DNA of 64,000 nucleotides, from the NCBI RefSeq assembly GCF_942548115.1, contig NZ_OW824151.1:434001-498000 (forward strand). Direction: 5' to 3'. Made by a program: the position numbers and the translations under genes. Source of the stretch: Aeromicrobium sp. Leaf245 (lineage in GTDB: Bacteria > Actinomycetota > Actinomycetes > Propionibacteriales > Nocardioidaceae). The notes under the pieces are model-generated. The model was given only the letters and a program-made list of their open reading frames with translations. It had not been told where the DNA came from and did not search any database. Shown here one piece after another: positions 4,085 to 36,240 of the stretch (within the stretch, counting starts at the first letter, position 1; each line of letters begins with the position of its first letter).

Positions 4085-4488
4085 CCTTCCTCTCTTCGCC
4101 CACCCCACGGTAGGTCGGACCTCGGACACCGCCGCCCCTGGTGATGGCGCACAGCCTCACCGGCCGGGCGGGTCCCTCCCTCGGCACGTCTGCCGACGCG
4201 TCAGACTAGGTGCCCGACGGGGTCGGATCAAAGCGCGCGCTGCACAACGGCTGGGGACAACCCTGGGGAGAGTGTGGAAAACGCCGCACACGCTGTGCAC
4301 AGCCAGTGGACGACACTGTGGAGAAGTGGGGGAAAAGCATGAGCATCAGGCCTCTGACCTGCGCAGACACGATGCACACAGTGTGGAGCCGGAATACTTT
4401 CCCGCCACGTTCTGTCCACCCGCCCGTCGCATCGACATGTCGACAGAACCCCGTCCTCCCCACGAAATCCACAGGCTGAGGACGCAGA
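4085..4488. other. dnaB/MATE intergenic region with DnaA-box-like cluster
   Basis: This 404-bp divergent gap has no credible gene. Between 4273 and 4473 it carries many TGTGGA/TCCACA motifs: TGTGGAAAA at 4273, TGTGGAGAA at 4317, TGTGGAGCC at 4382, TGTCCACC near 4412 and AAATCCACA at 4465, plus TGTGCACA at 4294. These are close to the DnaA box TTATCCACA. The region lies about 27 kb from dnaA. It may control dnaB or titrate DnaA. Confidence 0.6.
4433..4448 (+). repeat. Tandem octamer CGACATGT-CGACAGAA
   Basis: Two head-to-tail octamers upstream of dnaB. The centre TCGACATGTCGA is a 12-bp palindrome. Related tandem octamers occur after parB, inside dnaA and inside recF. Confidence 0.5.
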
Positions 4489-5796
4489 GTGAACAAGTTT
4501 GGTGAACAAGATCGGCGCATCGTCGCGGTCGCCGTGCCCGCGTTCTTCGCGCTCGTCAGCGAACCCCTCATGCTGCTCGCCGACACGGCGATCGTCGGTC
4601 GGCTCGGCACCTCCGAGCTGGGTGGTCTGGCGGTCGCCTCCAGCGTGCTGCTCACCGTCGTCGGGCTCTGCGTCTTCCTCGCCTACGGCAGCACCGCCAC
4701 CGTCGGTCGGCTGCACGGCGCGGGGCAGGAACGTGCAGCCTACGACGGTGCCGCCGGTGGGCTCTGGCTGGCCGTGGGACTCGGGGTGGTGCTCGGCGCC
4801 CTGGTCGCGGCGACGGCCGGACCCGTCGCCCGGGGTCTCGGCAGCTCGCCCGAGGTGGAGGGGCACGCCGTCACCTACCTGGTCGTGTCCGCGGCCGCGG
4901 TCCCGGCGATGCTGCTCGTGCTCGCGGCCACCGGCGCCCTGCGTGGCGTGCTCGACCTGCGCACGCCGCTCGTCGTGACGATCCTCGCCAACCTCCTGAA
5001 CATCGCGCTGAACCTGCTGCTGGTGCACGGGTTCGACCTCGGCATCGGTGGCTCGGCCGCCGGCACCGCGATCGCCCAGTGGGCCGCGGCACTGTGTCTC
5101 GTCGCCGTGGTGCTGCGGCGCGCGCGGGCCGCCGGCTCCTCCGGACGCCCCGACGTCGCGGGCGTGGTCGCCGCGGCCCGTCAGGGGGTCCCGCTGCTCG
5201 CCCGCACGGCCACGCTGCGCGCGGCCCTGCTGCTCGGCACGGCCGTCGCGGCGACCTTCGGTGACGCACCCCTGGCCGCGCACCAGATCGCGACGTCCCT
5301 CGTGTCGTTCCTCGCCTTCGCGCTGGACGCCGTCGCGATCGCGGGGCAGACCCTCACCGGCCGCACCCTGGGCGCGGGTGACGCGGAGGGAACCCGTGCC
5401 CTGACCCGGCGCATGATCGTCTGGGGCCTCGGCACCGGCGTGGTCGCGGCGGTGCTGCTGCTCGTGCTCGCGCCGTTCGTCGGTGGCTGGTTCACCCCCG
5501 ACGCCACCGTCCACGACGCGCTCGTGCCCGCCCTGGTCGTGGTCGCCCTGGTCCAGCCGATCTCCGGCGTGGTGTTCGTGCTCGACGGCGTGCTCATCGG
5601 CGCCGGCGACGGGGTCTACCTTGCCTGGGCGGGCCTCGCCGTGCTGGTCGCGTACGCCCCGCTCGCCCTGCTCGCCGGGTCGCTCGGCGCCGGGCTGGCC
5701 TGGCTGTGGGCGGCCTACGGCATGTTCCAGCTGGCCCGGCTCGTCACCCTGTGGCTCCGGCAGCGTGGTGACGCCTGGCTGGTCCTGGGGGCCTGA
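4489..5796 (+). CDS. MATE family (DinF-like) efflux protein
   Basis: A 435-aa multidrug and toxic compound extrusion protein with about 12 membrane helices. It begins DRRIVAVAVPAFFALVSEPL, followed by LLADTAIVGRLGTSELGG, the diagnostic first-repeat motif of DinF-type MATE proteins. MATE proteins exchange Na+ or H+ for cationic drugs. The second half repeats the fold, with RTATLRAALLLGTAVAATFG and HQIATSLVSFLAFALDAVAI. The GTG at 4489 has GAGGAC a few bases upstream. It is divergent from dnaB and convergent with the siderophore reductase gene. Substrate unknown. Confidence 0.9.
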   Translation: MNKFGEQDRRIVAVAVPAFFALVSEPLMLLADTAIVGRLGTSELGGLAVASSVLLTVVGLCVFLAYGSTATVGRLHGAGQERAAYDGAAGGLWLAVGLGVVLGALVAATAGPVARGLGSSPEVEGHAVTYLVVSAAAVPAMLLVLAATGALRGVLDLRTPLVVTILANLLNIALNLLLVHGFDLGIGGSAAGTAIAQWAAALCLVAVVLRRARAAGSSGRPDVAGVVAAARQGVPLLARTATLRAALLLGTAVAATFGDAPLAAHQIATSLVSFLAFALDAVAIAGQTLTGRTLGAGDAEGTRALTRRMIVWGLGTGVVAAVLLLVLAPFVGGWFTPDATVHDALVPALVVVALVQPISGVVFVLDGVLIGAGDGVYLAWAGLAVLVAYAPLALLAGSLGAGLAWLWAAYGMFQLARLVTLWLRQRGDAWLVLGA

Positions 5797-5815
5797 GTCC
5801 TCGCGCCGGGAGGTC

Positions 5816-34182: not shown

Positions 34183-35103
34183 ATGCACCTCGGACTCGTC
34201 GGACTCGGCAAGATGGGCGGCAACATGCGGTCCCGGCTGCGCGACGGTGGTGTCACCGTCACGGGCTACGACCGCAACCCCGACGTCACCGACGTCGACT
34301 CGCTGGAGGCGCTCGTCGCCGAGCTCCCCTCGCCCAAGGTCGTCTGGGTGATGGTGCCCTCGGGCGAGATCACCCGCGCCACGGTCGAGGAGCTCATCGG
34401 GCTGCTCGGCGAGGGCGACGTCATCGTCGACGGCGGCAACTCCCGCTGGACCGACGACGAGAAGCACGCGGCCCTGGCCGCCGAGAAGGGCATCGGCTAC
34501 GTCGACTGCGGCGTGAGCGGCGGCGTGTGGGGCCTGGAGAACGGCTACGCGCTCATGGCCGGTGGCGACGCGCACGACATCGCGAAGGTGCAGCCCGCGT
34601 TCGACGTGCTCAAGCCCGAGGGTGAGTCCGGCTTCGTCCACGCGGGAAGCGTCGGCGCGGGGCACTTCTCCAAGATGGTCCACAACGGCATCGAGTACGC
34701 CATGATGCAGGCCTACGCCGAGGGCTTCGAGCTGCTCGAGAAGGCCGAGCTGGTCGACAACGTCACCGACGTCTTCGACTCGTGGCGCGTGGGCACCGTG
34801 GTCCGTTCGTGGCTGCTCGACCTCCTGGTCAAGGCCCTGCAGGACGACCCCGGCCTGTCGAAGATCCGCGGCTACGCCGAGGACTCCGGTGAGGGACGGT
34901 GGACCGTCGAGGCGGCCATCGACCACGCGGTCCCGGCACCCACGATCGCGGCGTCGCTCTTCGCGCGGTTCGTGTCGCGCCAGGACGAGTCGCCGGCCAT
35001 GCAGGCCGTCGCGGCCATGCGTCAGCAGTTCGGTGGTCACGCCGTGCAGGCTGCGTCCGAGGCCGGTCACGACCCGGCCGACATGGACGCACGCCCCTCC
35101 TGA
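34183..35103 (+). CDS. gnd: 6-phosphogluconate dehydrogenase, decarboxylating (GntZ type)
   Basis: A 306-aa short-form 6PGDH that makes ribulose 5-phosphate and NAD(P)H. The N-terminal Rossmann motif LGLVGLGKMGGNM is followed by VIVDGGNSRWTDDEK, GVSGGVWGLENGYALMAGGD and the catalytic Lys in GHFSKMVHNGIEYAMMQAYA. The short type is often NAD-preferring and tetrameric. GGGAGGGAGA precedes the ATG. Its place between dnaN and recF is typical of several actinobacterial orders. Confidence 0.95.
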   Translation: MHLGLVGLGKMGGNMRSRLRDGGVTVTGYDRNPDVTDVDSLEALVAELPSPKVVWVMVPSGEITRATVEELIGLLGEGDVIVDGGNSRWTDDEKHAALAAEKGIGYVDCGVSGGVWGLENGYALMAGGDAHDIAKVQPAFDVLKPEGESGFVHAGSVGAGHFSKMVHNGIEYAMMQAYAEGFELLEKAELVDNVTDVFDSWRVGTVVRSWLLDLLVKALQDDPGLSKIRGYAEDSGEGRWTVEAAIDHAVPAPTIAASLFARFVSRQDESPAMQAVAAMRQQFGGHAVQAASEAGHDPADMDARPS

Positions 35104-35106
35104 CGC

Positions 35107-36240
35107 ATGCACGTCGCCCGTCTCTCGCTGCACGACTTCCGGTCCTACCCCGAGGTCGAGATCGTTCTGGAGCCGGGACCCACCGCGTTCATCGGGGCGA
35201 ACGGCCAGGGCAAGACCAACCTCGTCGAGGCCGTGGACTACCTCTCGCGGCTCGACTCGCACCGGGTCTCGTCGGACACGCCCCTGGTGCGGGCCGGCAC
35301 GGACCGCGCCGTGGTCCGGGCCGAGGTCGTGCGGGGTGATCGGACCGCGCTGCTGGAGCTGGAGATCACGCCGGGTCGGGCCAACCGGGCCCGGGTCAAC
35401 CGCGCCGCACTGCCGCGCACCCGCGACCTGGTCGGCGTGCTGCGCACGGTGACCTTCTCCCCCGAGGACCTGGCGCTCGTCAAGGGCGACCCGTCGGACC
35501 GGCGCCGGTTCCTCGACGGACTGCTCGTGCTGCGCACCCCGCGGCTCGCCGGCGTGAAGGCCGACTACGAGCGGGTCCTGCGTCAGCGCAACGCGCTGCT
35601 GAAGTCCGCCCGCAGTGGACGGTTCTCGAATCGACAAGTCGACATGTCGACTCTTGATATCTGGGACGACAAGCTGGCGACCCTGGGTGGTGAGCTGGTG
35701 GCCGCGCGCATCGCGCTGCTGCACGACCTGGCACCGTTCCTCGTCGACTCGTACCGGACGGTGGCCACCGAGGCGGCGGCCGACCGGCGCGACGTCACCG
35801 CCCTCTACCGTGCGTCGACCCCGGCCGACGACGAGTCGCCCGCCGGGGTCCGGGAGGCGTTGCTCGCCGGCATCGAGGAGCGTCGACGCGACGAGCTCGA
35901 CCGAGCGGTCACGCTCGTCGGTCCGCACCGCGACGAGGTGGAGCTGGCCATCGGCACCCTGCCCGCCAAGGGCTACGCCAGCCATGGCGAGTCGTGGTCG
36001 CTCGCCCTGGCCCTGCGGCTCGCGTCGTTCACGCTCCTGCGCGACGACGACGGCGACGACCCCGTGCTGATCCTCGACGACGTCTTCGCCGAGCTGGACC
36101 AGGGTCGGCGCGAGCAGCTCGCCGAGCTGGTCGGCGACGCCGAGCAGGTGCTCGTGACCGCGGCCGTGGCCGAGGACGTTCCCAAGGCGCTCGCCGGGCA
36201 GCGGTTCGACGTCCACGGCGGACAGGTCACCGGAGCATGA
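35107..36240 (+). CDS. recF: DNA repair protein RecF
   Basis: A 377-aa SMC-like ATPase that loads RecA at gaps. Walker A is [18 protein letters not shown] (about residues 31-48), and [23 protein letters not shown] strands open the protein. The signature [17 protein letters not shown] lies near 125, and the Walker B region [19 protein letters not shown] near 321. It starts 3 bases after gnd. Codons for [12 protein letters not shown] (about 176-187) use CAA, ACT, CTT and GAT, unusual for this genome. Confidence 0.97.
35632..35655 (+). repeat. Tandem octamers CGACAAGT-CGACATGT-CGACTCTT inside recF
   Basis: Two and a half octamers with a 14-bp palindrome GTCGACATGTCGAC, in a stretch of rare codons. 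The protein segment is conserved but the codon choice is not forced by it. Confidence 0.55.

Follow-up and report, generated by a model that had tools for sequence, protein, structure and literature searches.

The origin region of Aeromicrobium sp. Leaf245 carries tandem 8-bp repeats (octamers) at several replication and segregation loci, and the question that they raise is what binds them. We analysed a window of 64,000 nucleotides (positions 434001-498000 of the 3,463,989-base chromosome), in which octamers stand near dnaB, directly 3' of parB, and within dnaA and recF. The initial annotation had proposed that they are binding sites for an origin-region organiser. Their clustering at the origin and their conservation agree with this, and for the organiser we can name a candidate gene only, a small gene here called X, which lies between parA2 (pldP) and scpA. 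With moderate confidence, we propose that X binds (TCGAYWWR)n octamers, which would form centromere-like origin sites of a second ParABS-like or condensin-recruiting system.

All four tandem sites of the initial annotation were present in the sequence, three as exact pairs and the dnaB-side one with two mismatches. The dnaB-side site, CGACATGT CGACAGAA, is a two-unit site at 4433..4448 (+) between dnaB and a divergent MATE-like gene; its two mismatches are to CGACAWRTCGACAWRT, and its second unit is CGACAGAA. Three octamers lie at 25841..25864 (-) directly 3' of parB. The octamers within the coding DNA of dnaA domain II span 31376..31399 (+), with a degenerate first unit CCACAAGA, and three octamers lie within recF coding DNA at 35631..35655 (+), with a degenerate third unit CGACTCTT. 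Exact CGACAWRTCGACAWRT was found at 25843 (-), 31384 (+) and 35632 (+), and the four occurrences of CGACANNNCGACA in the 64-kb window are exactly the four sites. The runs of rare codons that had been noticed at the dnaA and recF octamers were borne out by codon counts: codons ending in A or T account for 29/502 in dnaA overall vs 7/12 at the octamer site, and for 31/377 in recF overall vs 6/12 at the site. AGA, AGT, CAA, ACA and TAT each occur once in dnaA, all at the octamer site.

The number of matches in the window was compared with an order-3 Markov model (20 simulated windows), and the reversed pattern was used as a control. We observed 3 exact matches, 4 at ≤1, 7 at ≤2 and 11 at ≤3 mismatches, against expectations of 0, 0, 0.2 and 3.6, respectively. 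At ≤2 mismatches, the whole genome contains 10 matching places, 7 of which are overlapping matches to the four sites, while the reversed control gave 3. All three exact tandem matches of the whole genome fall within 10 kb around dnaA.

We then considered the genus, using all 49 Aeromicrobium genomes (own included) and 58 loci with the oriC pieces of the 48 relatives. By DnaA, the nearest named relatives belong to Aeromicrobium, with 87% identity for the first match. The tandem pair at ≤1 mismatch matched 44/58 genomes (own included; split counted by hand), and in the genus it was present in 32/37 genomes vs 1/37 for the control. After overlapping matches were merged, the 32 genomes contained 64 sites, 44 of them within 10 kb of dnaA, where a fraction of 0.0058 was expected (binomial P ~1e-82, kinship ignored); distances are limited by draft contigs, and one of the 44 near sites (G016) was placed via its parB contig. 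The 20 far sites include two at the dnaB place (G006 and G018, where the octamers fall between dnaB and a MATE-like gene or at that gene's start) and three just before parA2 (G036, G031 and G027), and the remainder include coding matches. Uniform genome-wide occurrence, which had been set as one of two outcomes that would refute the proposal, was thus not observed, since the sites cluster near dnaA in the own genome and in the genus.

The places themselves are conserved. Counting two-unit sites at ≤1 mismatch, with an order-3 Markov model of each locus as the expectation, we found the parB 3' site in 42/49 genus loci vs 0.45 expected (~93-fold), the dnaA domain II site in 39/49 vs 0.45 (87-fold), and the recF site in 18/46 vs 1.8 (tenfold). 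At least one of the three was present in 49/49 genomes and two or more in 41/49. The recF site occurred in 9/9 scored genomes lacking the dnaA site and in 9/37 possessing it (Fisher P 4.4e-5, kinship not corrected). The other refuting outcome, a lack of conservation in relatives, was not observed at dnaA either, while the recF site was kept in just the 18 loci. Selection on DNA and not on protein, as the initial annotation suggested, is supported at dnaA, where relatives retain the octamers within a domain II whose peptide is variable around them. Over the whole of the Aeromicrobium origin regions, 111 two-unit sites were found vs 11.7 expected.

These counts bear on the simplest alternative, in which chance, composition or coding constraint would have produced the octamers incidentally in GC-rich coding DNA. 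Coding coincidences do occur, at a glycoside-hydrolase-like locus of another family (f3, three loci inspected) and in a metH-like gene of two Aeromicrobium, and the 16-base pattern, scored at ≤1 mismatch, barely exceeds its control outside the genus (see below). We nevertheless regard this explanation as very improbable, as it is already contradicted by the clustering in the own genome and the genus and by the conservation of place, with the three fold-excesses just given and with the count in 67 other actinobacterial origin regions, where two-unit sites numbered 7 vs 10 expected.

Two further tests were not counted as evidence. In dnaA, the best pair was found in all three reading frames (21, 8 and 13 of 42), and this spread was set aside because an 8-bp array visits every frame anyway. 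A motif-free lag-8 autocorrelation at threshold 17 gave 23 in Aeromicrobium vs 4-11 at lags 5, 7, 10, 11, 13, 14 and 16, 21 vs 3-11 in Nocardioidaceae (loci chosen for their array matches), and 20 vs 19-33 in the others. It was rejected; lags that are multiples of 3 were far higher in all sets, and thresholds 19-20 showed little excess.

Across the relatives, the octamers turn over in sequence while the 8-bp register stays (CGACAAGTCGACAAAT, CGACTTGTCGACAAAT, CGATATGTCGACAAAT), and the parB-side array of G027 contains about eleven degenerate octamers by eye. The 8-bp period of the unit first described, CGACAWRT, therefore held, while the unit itself proved broader: the consensus common to relatives is TCGAYWWR, which is self-reverse-complementary as a repeated pattern, so that each array consists of successive 8-bp pseudo-palindromes. 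The octamers differ from the GTTTCACGTGAAAC-type parS palindrome, a different centromere whose canonical copies lie at 27771..27784 and 28421..28434. DnaA boxes have the sequences TTATCCACA / TTGTCCACA; neither was found in the window by exact search, and the octamers are not DnaA boxes.

For the binding protein, several candidates were rejected. The CopG-type family RHH_1 (PF01402; RHH, ribbon-helix-helix) matched 10/14 control genomes but, at E ≤ 0.1, nothing in the own genome. The phage ParB profile gave 3 weak matches in the 49 genus genomes, at other places. Between trxB and parB, in the window and three Nocardioidaceae loci, no small DNA-binding gene was seen by eye among the composition-filtered open reading frames.

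The remaining candidate, X, lies outside the window in the own genome (G000:C1:2078820-2079173) and overlaps the end of parA2. It stands directly behind parA2 in 29/30 Aeromicrobium genomes, the one miss (L292) being a short contig piece, and is followed by scpA and scpB, whose products ScpA and ScpB were confirmed by Pfam. A parA2 ortholog (E below 1e-116) was present in 46/49 genus genomes (counted from the listing by hand), and ParA-family models match ParA2 below their curated cut-offs. X is 104-124 codons long, with start codons chosen by us, and its tail is conserved (M-x-R-R, PGA-ELFR); in its core (SGR...H-EK(M/I)TVY...EL...DRGR-VR), a ribbon-helix-helix-like pattern, KITVYVS...EL...LEQAR...DRGR-VR, can be seen by eye. 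It was found in 185/393 genomes of the class, namely 38/38 of the order Propionibacteriales and 147/355 others (split counted by hand).

The octamer arrays are probably docking sites for X. Because each octamer is symmetric as a pattern, dimers of X could line up at 8-bp intervals, in the way that ribbon-helix-helix partition proteins occupy their repeats. X would load the origin region and might contact ParA2 with its N-terminal tail, which is conserved and contains arginines (M-x-R-R...PGA-ELFR). In many species, X may also repress its own operon via similar sites at parA2, and since the operon is shared with scpAB, a coupling to condensin is suggested. An ATPase gene, a small partner gene, octamers at the origin and similar ones beside the ATPase gene are best read together as the layout of an RHH-partner partition system that is chromosomal and joined to condensin genes. 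The wider proposal, on which we are evenly divided, is that many actinobacterial chromosomes have a second complete centromere system beside ParABS, made up of ParA2/PldP, an RHH ParB-like X encoded with scpAB, and tandem octamers around oriC, some of them within dnaA and recF coding DNA. Actinobacteria carry a second ParA, encoded with condensin genes in the loci read here. If the proposal is true, a cognate DNA site and a partner protein would give this second ParA a defined, directly testable job at the origin, and replication genes such as dnaA and recF would carry an overlapping centromere code.

We next asked whether octamer-like sites occur at parA2, scoring two-unit sites at ≤2 mismatches 60-420 bases before the Walker A codons, a stretch that includes N-terminal coding and some xerD. 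Such sites were present in 15/30 Aeromicrobium, 7/8 other Nocardioidaceae, and, among further families (labelled f1-f50; f1 is Nocardioidaceae, which follows from Aeromicrobium, and f2 is probably Propionibacteriaceae, a guess), in 5/5 of f20, 1/1 of f12, 3/4 of f17, f41 and f48 together, and 3/3 of f29, where the matches sit inside apparent parA2 coding. The background in the rest of the same loci was 0.08-0.28 per equal length; the printed matches for L273, L394 and L443 differ from the units seen by eye. The two-unit count was used because the single-octamer count (21/30) includes matches in apparent xerD coding. In several Aeromicrobium the parA2 site precedes a GTAGAGT-like -10 box by eye. 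Separately, in L391, L392, L394 and L395 (f17, f41, f48), an octamer (ATGTCGAC, coding Met-Ser-Thr) contains what appears to be the start codon of parA2 and is possibly an operator over this start.

The operon and the parA2 sites also suit a rival explanation, in which X binds the octamers without being a partition protein: it would recruit or position condensin (ScpAB-SMC) near the origin, or mainly repress parA2-scpAB, with the origin sites tethering or titrating X. The location of X between parA2 and scpA and the operator-like sites at parA2 in several families favour this rival. Mycobacterial Rv1708 is encoded by the gene before scpA. This protein, called a MinD homologue, is described as binding ScpA and ParB (PMC10482377, accessible part). 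SMC loading, on the other hand, is described as ParB-dependent in Corynebacterium glutamicum (PMC11898615, accessible part), and the own genome has parB and parS, while pure repression leaves the sites in dnaA, in recF and after parB, kept across the genus, without explanation. We consider this rival rather unlikely, and a partition role for X remains our preferred reading.

Beyond the genus, the results were mixed. In the rest of the order, the tandem pair at ≤1 mismatch was found in 12/21 genomes vs 8/21 for the control (counted by hand), so this pattern is not specific outside the genus. The pattern TCGAYWWRTCGAYWWRTCGA at ≤1 mismatch matched 90/342 genomes of the order, and its reversed control matched one. 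Eighteen of the 90 belong to f3 and probably reflect a coding match; inspection of the three f3 loci suggested one coding coincidence, and these were rejected as arrays. In other Nocardioidaceae and f2, arrays lie near dnaA, parB or rsmG: the Nocardioidaceae matches are in dnaA or downstream of parB, L239 excepted, with one site after parB in Marmoricola (L082), and the f2 matches are mostly around rsmG, jag, parA or parB, with L215 and L220-L223 as exceptions. Origin loci of other Nocardioidaceae contained 34 two-unit sites vs 4.7 expected, a figure biased by the choice of loci, which were fetched for their array matches. The 67 origin regions mentioned above are named, mainly micrococcal ones (mostly Cellulomonas, Janibacter, Promicromonospora and similar genera; 1.31 Mb) and had no three-unit site at ≤3 mismatches.

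A four-unit array was found class-wide in 13/393 genomes, 10 of them within the order and the own genome not among them; its reversed control matched 3 genomes, all outside the order. The three arrays outside the order, in G415, G580 and G525, lie ~6.6, 21 and 47 kb from dnaA, respectively, and that of G415 is directly 3' of parB. X is present in 13/13 of the four-unit-array genomes; because all 38 genomes of the order have X, only 3 of the 13 are informative for a link between X and the arrays. Outside f1, the origin stretches of X-bearing families were scored for three-unit sites (≤3 mismatches): f2, f20 (a set that includes the known matches G525 and G580) and f12 have such sites, f14 and f50 have a single one each, and f22, f29, f17, f41, f48, f30, f28 and f42 have none. 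In addition, one two-unit-like site, reading CATCGACAACTCGACCTGG or the complement, is conserved in eight f22 origin regions (L398-L405) and is possibly coding.

A number of observations weigh against X as the partition partner of ParA2 at these arrays. Outside Propionibacteriales, four-unit arrays were found in 3/355 genomes, the same as for the reversed control (3). X can occur without arrays, as the X-bearing families f22, f29 and f17 showed no three-unit site (≤3 mismatches) in the origin stretches read, and the 67 array-free origin regions were counted irrespective of the presence of X in their genomes. An operator at parA2 is absent both from the own genome and from the three genomes most closely related to it (L275-L277), and no two-unit site was found upstream of parA2 in f22 (0/4) or f2 (0/2). 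The strongest objections, in our view, are the X-bearing array-free families, the possible presence of X in the array-free genomes, and the lack of an operator in the own genome. Furthermore, the arrays do not adjoin the parA2-X genes but lie ~1.6 Mb apart. X also has no credible family match: the whole protein gave 0 Pfam matches, core members gave stray unrelated matches (best E 0.018 in Pfam, 0.014 in NCBIfam and 0.14 in PHROG), and the best E against PDB sequences was 0.27. The core reached E 8.7e-5 against a designed TIM barrel in PDB; this value adds up four repeats, no one stretch being significant by itself, and we took it as chance. The hhalign comparisons of X with phage ParBs were weak (E 0.017, Prob 2.6%; E 0.0016, Prob 15.8%).

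Some of these objections would also suit a second rival, that the arrays are bound by another origin-region protein whose regulon includes the parA2 sites. We infer the link from X to the octamers from sequence, and X occurs in lineages without arrays in the stretches read. The motif nevertheless recurs at the start of the X-encoding operon in several families, as in autoregulated partition genes, and in the trxB-parB stretch of the window and three Nocardioidaceae loci no small DNA-binding gene was seen by eye among the composition-filtered open reading frames; we judge another binder improbable and retain X as the candidate.

The preferred arrangement resembles known systems in part. In type Ib plasmid partition, a small ribbon-helix-helix partner sits on short tandem repeats. 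As in TP228 ParF-ParG and pSM19035 delta-omega, described as having a ParA without an N-terminal DNA-binding domain (PMC9178275, accessible part), we found a ParA-type deviant Walker ATPase gene, a small partner directly behind parA, and short tandem repeats of period 8, for which the centromere role is proposed here; for repeats at the parA promoter the picture is mixed, as they are present in many families and absent in the own genome, f22 and f2. Type Ib systems are plasmid-borne, whereas the one proposed here would be chromosomal, beside canonical ParABS, and the omega protein of pSM19035 is described as using heptads and not octamers. A chromosomal RHH partner exists in archaea: SegA-SegB pairs a ParA-like ATPase with an RHH protein, SegB, that binds centromere-like sites, wraps DNA and acts in chromosome segregation; this system is archaeal, and the accessible part of the source mentions no tandem octamer arrays around oriC for it (PMC9178275). 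PldP/ParA2 (SCO1772) is the same gene as parA2, said to be present in all actinobacteria as a second parA-like gene, and PldP of C. glutamicum interacts with ParB and is located at septa; in the accessible part of this report, no DNA site or small partner gene is attached to it (PMC4255298). A literature search of titles, abstract openings and selected passages, with most subscription journals outside its scope, found no publication on the octamer arrays or on X among the papers listed.

The genes flanking the sites are as follows. dnaB, the replicative helicase (2657..4129, -), is a gene call from the list of open reading frames and was named from the appearance of its protein; the part of parB used as query (25884..26900, -) ends just before the array and had a match in 49/49 genus genomes, as did dnaA (31046..32554, +; own included), and recF (35107..36240, +) was taken from the list of open reading frames. 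In at least 11 Aeromicrobium, a long inverted repeat that by eye resembles a bidirectional terminator encloses the octamers on the parB side (genomes G068, G006, G060, G007, G058, G014, G019, G004, G032, G030 and G002; loci L167, L169, L168, L174, L175, L176, L177, L182, L184, L183 and L185). Two Aeromicrobium (L247:6098 and L248:6160) share a common octamer pair with near-identical flanks in an apparent coding region far from oriC.

The route to X led through phage parA loci. A scan of viral sequences with the array pattern gave 4 contigs, among them one actinophage with an unrelated parA that starts right after a row of TCGA octamers, and 22 further loci carry a parA 57-66% identical to it. 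A small gene lay behind the phage parA wherever the open reading frame filter found one. Among six of the small proteins compared with Pfam, one scored above the cut-offs for RHH_1 and RHH_5, four gave weaker RHH-type matches, including DUF6364/Antitox_RHH models, and one was only marginal; two that were scanned against PHROGs match an Arc-like repressor family. The arrays at the actinophage parA loci L315-L337 all have period 8, yet the octamers in them are quite unlike one another (TCGAYTAG, GGCGYAAT and others), and because the octamers differ from phage to phage, the phage ParB and its site may co-vary. The ParB of RedRock, a cluster A actinobacteriophage, is described as recognising parS at two loci, in each of which an 8-bp motif is directly repeated eight times; in this parABS, too, parA is followed by a small ParB gene, and the centromere consists of tandem 8-bp repeats (PMC7157519, accessible part). 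The phage systems differ in that the phage ParB profile does not find X, that their repeats flank parA-parB whereas the bacterial octamers stand at oriC, and that the bacterial operon also holds scpAB. No relative of X was found in viral contigs. Finally, a viral contig of 41% GC has, at L297:8685-8712, about five TCGACAAA-like period-8 repeats downstream of a primase-like gene, which are perhaps replication iterons.

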